Positions 24,783 to 29,350 of a DNA stretch of 29,350 nt are shown one piece after another. The DNA comes from Bacillota bacterium (GTDB lineage: Bacteria > Bacillota > Clostridia > Tissierellales > Sporanaerobacteraceae), in NCBI GenBank assembly GCA_029779375.1, contig JAKPAR010000402.1, forward strand, positions 1 through 29,350, in the 5' to 3' direction. Made by a program: the position numbers and the translations under genes. The stretch's first letter is position 1. Each line of letters starts with the position of its first letter. The notes beneath the pieces are model-generated. The model did not search any database. It was given only the letters and a program-made list of their open reading frames with translations, and was not told the DNA's origin.

Positions 24783-25433
24783 TTAGGATTCAGTATCAAA
24801 ACTAGGATGATTTTTCAAAAAATAAGACAATGTAAATAAACTTTCATTTAAATGCACATTTTCTACAACAATACTGTCTGGCACTATCAAGTCAGCAGGG
24901 GCAAAATTCCATATACCCTTTATACCACTTCTTACATATATATTTGCAACCTCTTGAGCATTGTCTTTAGGCGTTGTTATGATACCAATTTCCACATTAT
25001 TGTCCTTTATGAATTGTTCCAACAAATCTACATCTCTTATCTCAATATCTCTGATTTTTAATCCAATCATTTTAGGATTTTTATCAAACAGTGACAATAC
25101 TTTAAATCCTGCATCTTCAAATCCTTTATAATTTGCTATGGCCTGACCTAAATTGCCTGCACCAGCAATTACGGCATTGTACTTTTTATCTAGACCCAAT
25201 ATTATACCTAATTCTTTGTGCAAATCTTCAACATTGTACCCATACCCTTGTTGGCCAAATCCTCCGAAATTGTTTAAATCTTGTCTTATTTGAGAAGCTG
25301 TAAAACCTGTCAACTTGCTCAATTCCTGTGATGAAATTCTAGTTATTCCTTTGTTAAGAAGTTCTCCCAAATACCTATAATATTTAGGAAGTCTTCTTAT
25401 GACTGTCATTGAAACTCTACTTTCTCTATCCAT
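24783..25433 (-). CDS. rex: Redox-sensing transcriptional repressor Rex
   Basis: Rex binds DNA when the NADH/NAD+ ratio is low and represses fermentation genes. The N-terminal winged-helix domain has IRRLPKYYRYLGELLNKGITRISSQELSK...SQIRQDLNNFGGFGQQGYGY, the strongly conserved DNA-reading segment. The Rossmann domain has VIAGAGNLGQAIANY for NADH, followed by the IGIITTPKDNAQ and WNFAPADLIVP motifs. The 216 residues are normal. The ATG at 25433 lies 7 bases after GGAGAGGAAG; an in-frame TTG just upstream is less likely. It is monocistronic with its own promoter and terminator, directly before the acd-etfBA operon it probably regulates. Confidence 0.97.
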   Translation of the reverse strand: MDRESRVSMTVIRRLPKYYRYLGELLNKGITRISSQELSKLTGFTASQIRQDLNNFGGFGQQGYGYNVEDLHKELGIILGLDKKYNAVIAGAGNLGQAIANYKGFEDAGFKVLSLFDKNPKMIGLKIRDIEIRDVDLLEQFIKDNNVEIGIITTPKDNAQEVANIYVRSGIKGIWNFAPADLIVPDSIVVENVHLNESLFTLSYFLKNHPSFDTES

Positions 25434-25482
25434 ATTCAAACTTCCTCTCCTACTATCGAATTTTAACGAATTACTTTTTCAA

Positions 25483-25948: not shown

Positions 25949-27865
25949 ATGATAGTACTATCTTGCAGCAATTTATCTAAAACTTTTGGCATCGATACTA
26001 TATTAGATAATATAACTTTTGCTATAAATAGTGGAGAAAAAGTTGGTCTTGTGGGACTAAATGGTTCTGGAAAAACAACTCTTTTCAATATTTTAGCTGG
26101 AGAAATTTCTAAAGATAGTGGAGATATATATGTTCAAAAAGACTTAAAAATAGGATATTTAAAACAACATGTTCAAATTCAAAGTAATAAAACCGTATTT
26201 GAAGAATGCCTAGAAGTATTTGCACCTATAATGGAAATAGAAAAAAATTTAAGAAAACTTGAAAAACTAATAAGTATAGAGGGGGCAAAAGGTGAAACAG
26301 AAAAGCTAAATAAGCTTATGGAAGAATACTCTAATCTACTAGAAGAGTTTTCAAATAAAAATGGATATGGATTTAAAAGTGAAATAAAAGGCGTTTTAAA
26401 AGGTCTTGGCTTTTCTGATGAAGATATGGAAAAAGAAATAAACAAGTTGAGTGGTGGACAAAAAGCTAGATTGTCTTTAGGAAAACTACTTCTTGAAAAG
26501 CCTGATTTGCTTTTATTGGACGAGCCTACCAACCATTTAGATATAGAAGCTGTCTCTTGGCTAGAAAAATTTCTAAAAGAATACAATGGTACTGCCCTCA
26601 TCATCTCTCATGACAGATATTTCTTAGACAATGTTGTAGATAAAATATTTCAACTAGAAAATTTAACCCTTAAAACCTACAATGGAAATTATACAGAATT
26701 TATGAAAAAACGAAAAATAGAAATAGAACTTTTAAAAAAACAATATGACAATCAACAAAAAGAAATAGAAAGACAAGAAGAAATAATCAAGAGATTTTTA
26801 AGCTATGGAGGACAAAGATATATCAAACAAGCTCAAAGCAGGCAAAAACTCCTTGAAAAAATGAAAAAAGTTGATAAACCTATAGCTGATGGGAAAAAAA
26901 CAAAACTTAGATTTGAGCCTAAAATAGAAAGTGGAAGAGAAGTCCTTAAAATAGAAGGAGTAAGTAAATCTTTTGACAATAATGTACTGTTTGAAAATGT
27001 GAATTTCAATGTCTATAGAGGTGAAAAAGTAGGACTTATTGGTCCTAATGGAATAGGTAAAACTACTTTGTTTAAAATAATCTTGGGAAAGATATCTCAA
27101 ACTAATGGAGATATAGTACTTGGGTCTAATGTCCATATTGGATATTTTGATCAAGAGCAGGCAAACTTAGACCCCAACAAAACCGTTATTGATGAAATAT
27201 GGGACGAAAATCCCAATTTAGATTATTATCAAATAAGAACTTATTTAAGCCAGTTTTTATTTTTTGGAGATGATATATTTAAAGAAATAAAAGATTTAAG
27301 CGGTGGTGAGAGAAGCAGAATATCACTACTTAAGCTTATGCTTTCTAAATCCAATTTTCTTTTAATGGACGAACCTACCAACCATTTGGACATAGATTCA
27401 AAAGAAGTTCTAGAAGAGGCTTTAGAAAATTATGATGGGACAATTTTAGTTATTTCTCATGACAGATATTTCTTAAATAAAGTCACAGATAAAATCGTTG
27501 AATTATCTAAAGATGGCACTGAAGAGTTTTTGGGAAATTTTGATTATTATTTAGAAAAGAAAAATCAAATTTTAGAAGAAGATGAAGAAGAAGAAACTAA
27601 GACTAAAACTCAAATGAAAATTGAAAGAAAAAAGGAAAGAGAAAAAAAAGAAAAAGAAAAAGAAAGAAAAAAGGAAATTTCAAAACTAGAAAGTCTAATT
27701 GCAAATGAAGAAGAAAAAATCAAAGAAATAGATGCTATAATGTGCAATCCCCAAATTTATGATGAACCAGAAAAAGTACAAGACTTAGCCATAAAAAGAG
27801 ATGAAATTCAAAGCAAATTAGATATGCTATATGAGGAATGGATAAGTCTTACAGAAGATTCATAG
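25949..27865 (+). CDS. ABC-F ATPase, YdiF/Uup-like housekeeping type
   Basis: This is a cytoplasmic twin-ATPase of the ABC-F family, thought to act on stalled ribosomes in translation. It has two complete ABC domains. The first has GLNGSGKTT (36-44), LSGGQKARLSLG and LLLLDEPTNHLD. The second has GPNGIGKTT, LSGGERSRISLLKL and LLMDEPTNHLD. An arginine/lysine-rich linker (about 235-320, including YGGQRYIKQAQSRQKLL) forms the tRNA-contacting P-site motif region. From about residue 535 to 638 a Lys/Glu-rich coiled coil follows, ending LDMLYEEWISL, as in YdiF/YfmR/Uup. The length of 638 fits these proteins, in contrast to the 490-residue resistance-type ABC-F at 8051-9523. AGGAGTGAATAAAA precedes the ATG. 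Confidence 0.92.
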   Translation: MIVLSCSNLSKTFGIDTILDNITFAINSGEKVGLVGLNGSGKTTLFNILAGEISKDSGDIYVQKDLKIGYLKQHVQIQSNKTVFEECLEVFAPIMEIEKNLRKLEKLISIEGAKGETEKLNKLMEEYSNLLEEFSNKNGYGFKSEIKGVLKGLGFSDEDMEKEINKLSGGQKARLSLGKLLLEKPDLLLLDEPTNHLDIEAVSWLEKFLKEYNGTALIISHDRYFLDNVVDKIFQLENLTLKTYNGNYTEFMKKRKIEIELLKKQYDNQQKEIERQEEIIKRFLSYGGQRYIKQAQSRQKLLEKMKKVDKPIADGKKTKLRFEPKIESGREVLKIEGVSKSFDNNVLFENVNFNVYRGEKVGLIGPNGIGKTTLFKIILGKISQTNGDIVLGSNVHIGYFDQEQANLDPNKTVIDEIWDENPNLDYYQIRTYLSQFLFFGDDIFKEIKDLSGGERSRISLLKLMLSKSNFLLMDEPTNHLDIDSKEVLEEALENYDGTILVISHDRYFLNKVTDKIVELSKDGTEEFLGNFDYYLEKKNQILEEDEEEETKTKTQMKIERKKEREKKEKEKERKKEISKLESLIANEEEKIKEIDAIMCNPQIYDEPEKVQDLAIKRDEIQSKLDMLYEEWISLTEDS

Positions 27866-27881
27866 GAAATTTGTCCCCAAT

Positions 27882-28010
27882 AAATCCACAACTTATTCAC
27901 ATTATCCACATATTTATCCACAAGTATTTTAGCTATTCTAATTTAAATTTTTAGCTTTTTCCACATTATCCACACTTTTTCTTTTGAATTTTTATAAATT
28001 GTGTGGATAA
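27882..28010. promoter_or_regulatory. Cluster of DnaA boxes
   Basis: Five consensus DnaA boxes (TTATNCACA) lie within 120 bp: TTATTCACA at 27893-27901, TTATCCACA at 27902-27910, 27914-27922 and 27966-27974, and the reverse TGTGGATAA at 28002-28010. Two near matches flank them (AAATCCACA at 27882-27890 and TTTTCCACA at 27957-27965). The first group is in direct, nearly back-to-back order. An AT-rich stretch separates the subgroups. The genes on both sides converge here, so promoter control is not expected. No dnaA or dnaN is nearby; a DnaA-titrating or replication-control site is the most natural reading, an origin the alternative. Confidence 0.85.
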
Positions 28011-28014
28011 TGTG
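27962..28014. repeat. Inverted repeat containing DnaA boxes
   Basis: A 14-bp perfect inverted repeat, CACATTATCCACAC (27962-27975) and GTGTGGATAATGTG (28001-28014), has a 25-base AT-rich loop. Each arm holds one DnaA box. It could also act as a transcript-end hairpin between the convergent genes, but no T-run follows on either strand. Confidence 0.8.
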
Positions 28015-28029
28015 TGCAAAATTTGTTGA

Positions 28030-29052
28030 TTATTTAAACCCTAACTCTAAATTTGGTTCTACATTCAAATCAAATTTAGAAGTATATCCACTAATATAGT
28101 TGAAATATGCAGCAGAACCTATCATAGCAGCATTGTCTGTGCATAAAATTGTAGATGGATATTTTATATCTATTCCTTCTTTATTTCCTCTATCTAAAAG
28201 CATGTTTCTAAGTCCTTTATTGGCTGCTACACCACCTGCCACTACTATAGTTTTAGATTTTCTTTCAAGGGCAAGTCTTATGGTTTTTTCTACAAGAACT
28301 TCTGTTGTTGCGGCTTGAAAACTTGCTGCTACATCTTCTATTACTATTTCTTCTCCCATTTGCTTTGCGTGATTTAGATAGTTTAGTACAGCAGTTTTTA
28401 AACCGCTAAAACTAAAATCATAGCTATCTTCTTCTAGGCAAGGTCTTGGAAAGTTTATTGCTTCACTATTTCCCTCCACTGCCAATTTATCTATAAGAGG
28501 CCCTCCTGGATATGGAAGTCCTAGGGATCTAGCTACTTTGTCAAAAGCCTCTCCAGCAGCATCATCTCTTGTCCTGCCTACAAGTTCATACTCAGTATAG
28601 GAGTTGGCTTGTACTAAATAAGTATGCCCTCCTGATACTACAAGGCAAGTAAAAGGTGGCTCTAAATCCTTGTGAGTAATGTAATTGGCACATATATGAC
28701 CTTCTATGTGGTTTACCCCTACAAGAGGCACATCTAACGCATAAGCTATAGCTTTAGCACTGGATATACCCACAAGAAGTGCCCCTACAAGTCCTGGACC
28801 TCTAGTCACCCCTACTATATCAATATCTTTAAATTTAATATTCGCTTCATCAAGAGCTTGTTGTATGATGGAATTTATACTTTCTATATGTTTTCTTGAA
28901 GCAACTTCTGGTACTACTCCACCAAATTTTCTATGAATCTCAATTTGTGATGAGATAATATTTGAAAAAACTTCCCTACCATTTTTAAGCACCGCACAGG
29001 AAGTTTCATCGCAAGAAGTTTCTATTGCCAATGTCATGATGTCCTTTTTCAT
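28030..29052 (-). CDS. tsaD: tRNA N6-adenosine threonylcarbamoyltransferase TsaD
   Basis: TsaD, with TsaB and TsaE, transfers the threonylcarbamoyl group to A37 of tRNAs reading ANN codons. [13 protein letters not shown] near the start, the metal-binding histidines H115 and H119 in NHIEGHI, the ATP-binding VSGGHT and [12 protein letters not shown], and the late CTDNAAMIG segment identify it. The frame is open upstream to 29091, but the ATG at 29052 has GAGGTG at good spacing and gives 340 residues, the family length. It lies 23 bases after rimI on the same strand, the usual rimI-tsaD order. Confidence 0.97.
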
Positions 29053-29075
29053 CTTTTTCACCTCAATCAAATTTC

Positions 29076-29350
29076 TCATATTCTTTTCCACATAATTATT
29101 GCATCCTCATTGTTGTCAGAATAATATCCAGGTCGAATACCATATTCTTTAAATCCATATTTAGTGTATAAAGATTTTGCTATCTCATTAGTCTTTCTCA
29201 CTTCTAAAGTCATAGCAACAATGTTTCTATCACTACATATATCTATCAAAGCTTCCATTATTTTTTTCCCAACCCCAAGACCTCTGTATTTTTCATGAAC
29301 TGCAATATTTGTCACATGCCCTTCATCTATTATAAGCCATATCCCACCAT
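29076..29350 (-). CDS. rimI: Ribosomal-protein-alanine N-acetyltransferase RimI, 5' end cut by window edge
   Basis: This is a GNAT-fold acetyltransferase that modifies the N-terminal alanine of ribosomal protein S18. The visible 91 residues run from the window edge through [27 protein letters not shown], where RGLGVG is the acetyl-CoA pyrophosphate loop. They then pass through [30 protein letters not shown], the RimI-specific C-terminal part, to IIMWKRI. The N-terminal 50-60 residues lie beyond the window. An internal GTG at 29315 is not the start. It lies directly upstream of tsaD, where RimI is normally found. Confidence 0.93.

Follow-up and report, generated by a model that had tools for sequence, protein, structure and literature searches.

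The spacer between a gene for an ABC-F ATPase and tsaD, in the stretch of DNA analysed here (the window, 29,350 nucleotides from a member of the Sporanaerobacteraceae, order Tissierellales), carries an array of DnaA boxes which has the box geometry of some replication origins but not their CTA repeat, and which probably serves to titrate DnaA. Judged by gene order, the site is the positional (syntenic) counterpart of the gcp/ydiF cluster of Bacillus subtilis. DnaA-box clusters outside oriC, that one included, are already known in B. subtilis; what is added here is the depth of conservation across Bacilli and Clostridia-type lineages, and the origin-like spacing without the exact CTA unwinding motif. 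A literature search found no tsaD-linked cluster outside B. subtilis, the primary cluster papers being beyond that search, and an earlier report of the conservation is possible.

The box array between ABC-F and tsaD

The features of the spacer and of the two genes which converge on it are given below, with box positions counted from the box at 27914.

25949..27865, plus strand: ABC-F ATPase (Pfam), positional counterpart of B. subtilis ydiF
27866..28029, no strand: ABC-F/tsaD spacer with the DnaA-box cluster, 164 bp, 26% G+C
27893..27901, plus strand: DnaA box TTATTCACA, position -21, exact match to TTATNCACA
27902..27910, plus strand: DnaA box TTATCCACA, position -12, in tandem with the 27893 box, exact match to TTATNCACA
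27914..27922, plus strand: DnaA box TTATCCACA, position 0, distal box of the 52-bp pair, exact
27957..27965, plus strand: weak DnaA box TTTTCCACA, position +43, one mismatch, common to Bacilli and Tissierellales copies
27966..27974, plus strand: DnaA box TTATCCACA, position +52, in tandem with the weak 27957 box, exact
27962-27975 / 28001-28014, no strand: 14-bp inverted repeat formed by the facing boxes, read by eye
28002..28010, minus strand: inverted DnaA box TTATCCACA, exact
28013..28021, minus strand: weak inverted DnaA box TTTTGCACA, one mismatch
28030..29091, minus strand: tsaD (gcp), tRNA threonylcarbamoyladenosine synthase subunit (Pfam), the companion gene of the cluster in relatives

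The first-pass annotation had described five consensus boxes and two near matches. These are real, the second near match (28013..28021) running just beyond 28014, where that annotation ended. The four boxes of its direct array are the exact plus-strand boxes at 27893, 27902, 27914 and 27966, and the 14-bp inverted repeat in which it placed two boxes is seen at the positions listed. In addition, AAATCCACA at 27882 is two mismatches from TTATNCACA. The judgement that such a group was very unlikely to arise by chance was borne out, as the five exact boxes in 27866-28029 compare with a mean of 0.03 and a maximum of 2 in dinucleotide shuffles, none of the 5000 reaching five. Gene calls and Pfam confirmed that ABC-F and tsaD are convergent; the conclusion drawn from this, that the site is not an operator, holds for the window but not for the class and phylum samples described below, in which the next gene is mostly co-directional. 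A gene for a Rex-type redox repressor (PF02629, PF06971) at 24783-25439 adjoins ABC-F, and the window's gene order presumably matches the order gcp-ydiF-rex in B. subtilis.

A terminator scan gave no terminator-like site in the spacer, and neither a promoter excess nor an Rfam match was found there. A reading of the spacer as an RNA element or a terminator was disfavoured on the basis of the empty terminator scan and the lack of an Rfam match. The strand of the inverted repeat does fold as RNA, with a z of -6.1.

Conservation at the 3' end of tsaD

tsaD was found in all 60 relatives from the order, in 96 of 99 genomes from the class and in 117 of 119 from the phylum, and the 3' flanks of all 266 distinct tsaD loci were fetched. 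Clusters were counted in flanks of at least 300 bp, which numbered 59, 88 and 114 for order, class and phylum respectively. At least two exact boxes within 200 bp were present in 41/59, 20/88 and 63/114 of these flanks, and at least three in 26, 9 and 31; the flanks without two exact boxes within 200 bp were 18/59, 68/88 and 51/114. The reversed motif, used as a control in the 3' flanks, gave 0, 1 and 0 clusters, twenty dinucleotide shuffles per group yielded at most 1 clustered flank, and the 700 bp upstream of tsaD contained no cluster in any of 56 order, 91 class or 114 phylum regions. A sample from the Bacilli, biased towards relatives of Neobacillus in that the best-matching 30 loci of 81 genomes were taken, had clusters in 23 of its 30 tsaD flanks. 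Boxes in tsaD-adjacent spacers are kept, therefore, in relatives from the order, the class, the phylum and the Bacilli, as the first-pass reading would have it. In the one E. coli genome used (K-12), the 10 kb covered contains one exact box, about 4.9 kb from tsaD.

The boxes of the clustered flanks lie predominantly (320 of 364) on the strand opposite tsaD. A convergent ABC-F gene was found in at least 42 of 60 order, at least 5 of 92 class and at least 4 of 114 phylum flanks, all of which are lower bounds because many loci were covered for only about 1.5 kb. A simple ORF caller and BLAST grouping were applied to the gene immediately following tsaD at the 81 clustered class and phylum loci. 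This gene fell into 14 multi-member groups (the largest with 16, 11, 7 and 5 members) and 17 singletons; it was co-directional with tsaD at 67 loci and convergent at 14. The variety of these neighbours suggests that the cluster follows tsaD and not the gene on its other side, although the loci had been collected by tsaD.

Spacing of the boxes

The 52-bp direct pair, TTATNCACA-N43-TTATNCACA, was found 20 times, in 18 genomes, when the 60 relatives were scanned genome-wide, and its reversed control was not found at all. By coordinates, 16 of the 20 pairs sit 3' of tsaD. For direct pairs separated by 0-30 bp, 40 genomes gave 108, with 3 matches altogether for the reversed control. Twenty-three of the 108, in 17 genomes, are at tsaD 3' ends, where 0.04 were expected, and 22 of those 23 point toward tsaD; about 22, give or take one or so, are at oriC in 18 genomes, and 63 are at neither place. 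This uncertainty in the oriC count does not touch the tsaD counts. Among all 266 flanks, boxes on the same strand were most often 9 bp (40 genomes), 21 bp (31), 52 bp (20), 12 bp (16), 42 bp (11), and 64 and 73 bp (10 each) apart. Except for 9 and 12 bp, these spacings fall near whole helical turns.

The pattern TTATNCACA-N35-TTTCCACATTATCCACA was run once against 84,980 genomes and gave 60 matches, 59 of them in genomes with Bacillota names and one in an 'uncultured bacterium'. Of these, 47 are at tsaD/ABC-F, 11 at oriC and 2 elsewhere. The pattern was derived from tsaD copies, so the frequency of other geometries cannot be measured by it, and the weak box at +43 is present in the scanned copies by selection, being part of the pattern. 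A convergent tsaD lies no more than 1.2 kb away in 45 of the 60 matches, and at least 41 of the 45 have ABC-F on the opposite side. The two further matches which complete the 47, L336 and L341, have the cluster beside ABC-F and, by eye, another gene (subtilase-like; GntR-like) where tsaD would be expected. Ten of the other 13 are directly 3' of dnaA, as located by TBLASTN with the DnaA of the window's genome, and dnaN is on the other side in all eight dnaA-adjacent copies with enough sequence (Pfam); L362, which is beside rnpA, was counted as the eleventh oriC copy. The two matches elsewhere are L340 (Evansella) and L349. Nine named Bacilli genomes were selected from those matched by the scan; each has the 52-bp pair at a single locus, which is tsaD in eight. 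Alignment columns lying between boxes show little conservation in the 11 Clostridia-type copies and partial conservation in the 36 Bacilli copies.

DnaA-trios at origins and at tsaD

In the available parts of the relevant papers, the basal unwinding system of the B. subtilis oriC (incC) is described as comprising distal boxes, boxes 6/7 and DnaA-trios (PMC6669920, PMC8287927). The box portion of such a system, a distal box with tandem proximal boxes, was found in the window at 27914 and 27957/27966, with the geometry of the 11 oriC copies. The trios were not. The 40 nt following the +52 box contain at least three exact CTA in 10 of the 11 oriC copies, the eleventh having an imperfect CTA repeat, and in 0 of the 47 tsaD/ABC-F copies. 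None of the eight sites tested in the window has a run of at least two exact CTA in the 40 nt that follow it, and the oriC of the same genome, beside dnaA, has CTACTACTATTACTA after a box. A loose definition of the trios ([CT]T[AT] x3) admits the T-rich stretch after box 27966 and 3 of the 47 tsaD copies, so the absence of trios rests on exact CTA. Nor is TACTACTA enriched 3' of tsaD, where it occurs in 3 of 125 flanks with at least two boxes and in 5 of 266 overall, compared to 7 of 266 upstream regions; in the Bacilli it was found in 1 of 30 tsaD flanks. From its sequence the array resembles an origin reduced to its boxes, the unwinding half being absent.

One of the two scan matches elsewhere, L349 of an uncultured bacterium, has from position 1246 onward ten boxes, the 52-bp geometry and a CTA run of three. 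No dnaA was found in the stretch of L349 examined, and the locus may be a true, possibly relocated, origin.

Other box clusters

The DnaA of the window's genome carries the box-binding domain Bac_DnaA_C. The 1.80-Mb assembly of that genome contains 92 exact copies of TTATNCACA, compared to 58 of the reversed motif. The oriC, on contig C331, has six boxes within 335 bp plus two, and a weaker group on contig C48 has three in 139 bp. The tsaD site, with five boxes in 118 bp, is rivalled in the assembly only by oriC, although further dense clusters could be missing since the assembly is 88.8% complete and divided among 402 contigs. The first-pass annotation had placed the cluster far from dnaA, and dnaA is indeed on C331 whereas the window is on C261. 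It had also taken many equally dense clusters, scattered through the genome, as a sign against its reading; such scattering is not seen in the assembled genome.

A third cluster lies between Amidase_3 (CwlD-like) and iron hydrogenase/PAS genes in the window's genome (L301:1953-2091) and in a genome of the same genus (L308:3896-4034, with genes identified by similarity to L301). A second is seen in several genomes upstream of hpf, the gene for a ribosome hibernation factor (PF02482/PF16321), for example L300:6047-6107, L302:4225-4307 and L442-L471. hpf is present in 58 of 60 genomes of the order; among 30 hpf loci, 27 have at least two boxes within 200 bp and 18 at least three, although a few of the pairs may lie elsewhere than upstream. 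A search of the incomplete assembly of the window's genome did not find the hpf gene itself.

Proposed function and alternatives

Origin spacing without a CTA repeat suggests that the array is likely to keep DnaA from the origin rather than to act as a start site. Cooperative binding of ATP-DnaA would involve both tandem pairs, 27893/27902 and 27957/27966, as well as the distal box at a distance of 52 bp (some five turns of the helix). The origin-like complex so formed would be unable to pass onto single-stranded trios, and the array would thus retain DnaA without opening the DNA and, together with other clusters, delay initiation. Given the hpf cluster in the order, titration would be shared and tsaD would not be its sole site. 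The distance between tsaD and oriC is not conserved: in 36 genomes whose dnaA and tsaD share one large contig, the position of tsaD ranges from 0.13 to 0.96 of the replication arm, which argues against models that need a fixed distance. In its widest form, towards which we are tentative and against which we would lean slightly, the proposal is that the 3' flank of tsaD is an ancient, Bacillota-wide origin decoy, a trio-less platform of the oriC type, kept while the other neighbour was swapped many times, on which DnaA can assemble but not fire and which sets the threshold for initiation. The decoy model is testable, and bears on how Gram-positive bacteria might buffer DnaA; the box geometry without CTA provides a signature by which such sites may be sought in other genomes.

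The first-pass annotation had allowed for a second origin-like region. A second or cryptic origin, opened by DnaA under some conditions, would account for the box geometry common to the 11 oriC copies, the AT-rich spacer and the loosely trio-like tract after box 27966. However, the exact trios are confined to the oriC copies in the comparison above, TACTACTA shows no enrichment 3' of tsaD and is rare in the Bacilli flanks, and the genome already has a trio-bearing oriC beside dnaA, so that this explanation is very unlikely. Some DnaA-dependent control of tsaD (a transcript end, an antisense promoter or a roadblock), by which t6A modification of tRNA would be coupled to replication, is unlikely to a lesser degree. 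It draws on the constancy of tsaD as partner, the downstream gene being from many unrelated families, with the same proviso as to how the loci were collected, and on the strand preference of the boxes. We take ywlC of B. subtilis to be a tsaC-type gene. A cluster by ywlC is likewise recorded in the available part of PMC4447404. Nevertheless the boxes are located past the stop codon of tsaD, the spacer has no terminator or promoter excess, and plain inheritance of the tsaD flank would account for the linkage as well. A general link between t6A and DnaA was dropped, as only 1 of 30 tsaC-family loci (from 43 matches in 41 genomes, with about 1.5 kb taken on each side) had at least two boxes within 200 bp.

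Boxes phased close to the helical repeat and conserved at their site would also suit a structural landmark at which DnaA loops or anchors the chromosome instead of being titrated; the varying position relative to oriC speaks against this, and we regard it as improbable. That the boxes are chance occurrences, or part of an AT-rich transcription terminator without a role for DnaA, is hardly credible. As RNA the inverted repeat does form a good fold, but five boxes were never reached in the shuffles, neither a terminator-like site nor an Rfam match was found, and the conservation of the boxes, with the intervening sequence largely not conserved in the 11 Clostridia-type copies, already contradicts such an explanation.

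Comparison with known systems

The datA locus of E. coli, cited by the first-pass annotation as a precedent, is a compact DnaA-box cluster outside the origin which lowers active DnaA (PMC4585315, available part). It acts through hydrolysis of DnaA-bound ATP with IHF (for the role of IHF, PMC10950094, available part). According to the available part of a 2026 review, B. subtilis is without datA and IHF, and likewise without Hda and SeqA (PMC13220808). The likeness to the window site is that of a compact box cluster outside the origin; the mechanism of datA is IHF-dependent hydrolysis. Clusters of the window's type have no conserved distance from oriC. datA therefore serves as a functional comparison only.

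Compared to the basal unwinding system of oriC, the window cluster shares the distal and tandem proximal boxes, with the 52-bp spacing seen in 11 oriC copies of other Bacillota, but is without exact CTA trios and is not beside dnaA.

The closest counterpart is the gcp/ydiF cluster, where gcp is taken by us to be tsaD and ydiF to be the ABC-F gene. The window site lies between the same two genes, downstream of both, and likewise has many boxes in a short spacer. It differs in belonging to a distant order, the Tissierellales, and in having five exact boxes, and DnaA binding has been measured for B. subtilis only. There, the site 'downstream of gcp; downstream of ydiF' is region 4, one of the top in vitro DnaA-binding regions in Table 1 of PMC4447404, the available part of which gives 10 predicted boxes in 300 bp, a Kd of 0.15 μM for ATP-DnaA and 0.33 μM for ADP-DnaA, and a 16-fold greater recovery of DNA with ATP-DnaA than with ADP-DnaA. 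Removal of six clusters outside oriC leads to early initiation in B. subtilis, in the available accounts (PMC5295017, PMC13220808), the phenotype being strong only with all clusters removed (PMC5295017). The same part of PMC5295017 states that, in this organism, a DnaA-box cluster of significant regulatory importance has yet to be identified. Each cluster alone has little effect in B. subtilis. The first-pass reading of the site as a titration cluster with a precedent in B. subtilis is supported by its counterpart position, its conservation and the scarcity of equally dense clusters.
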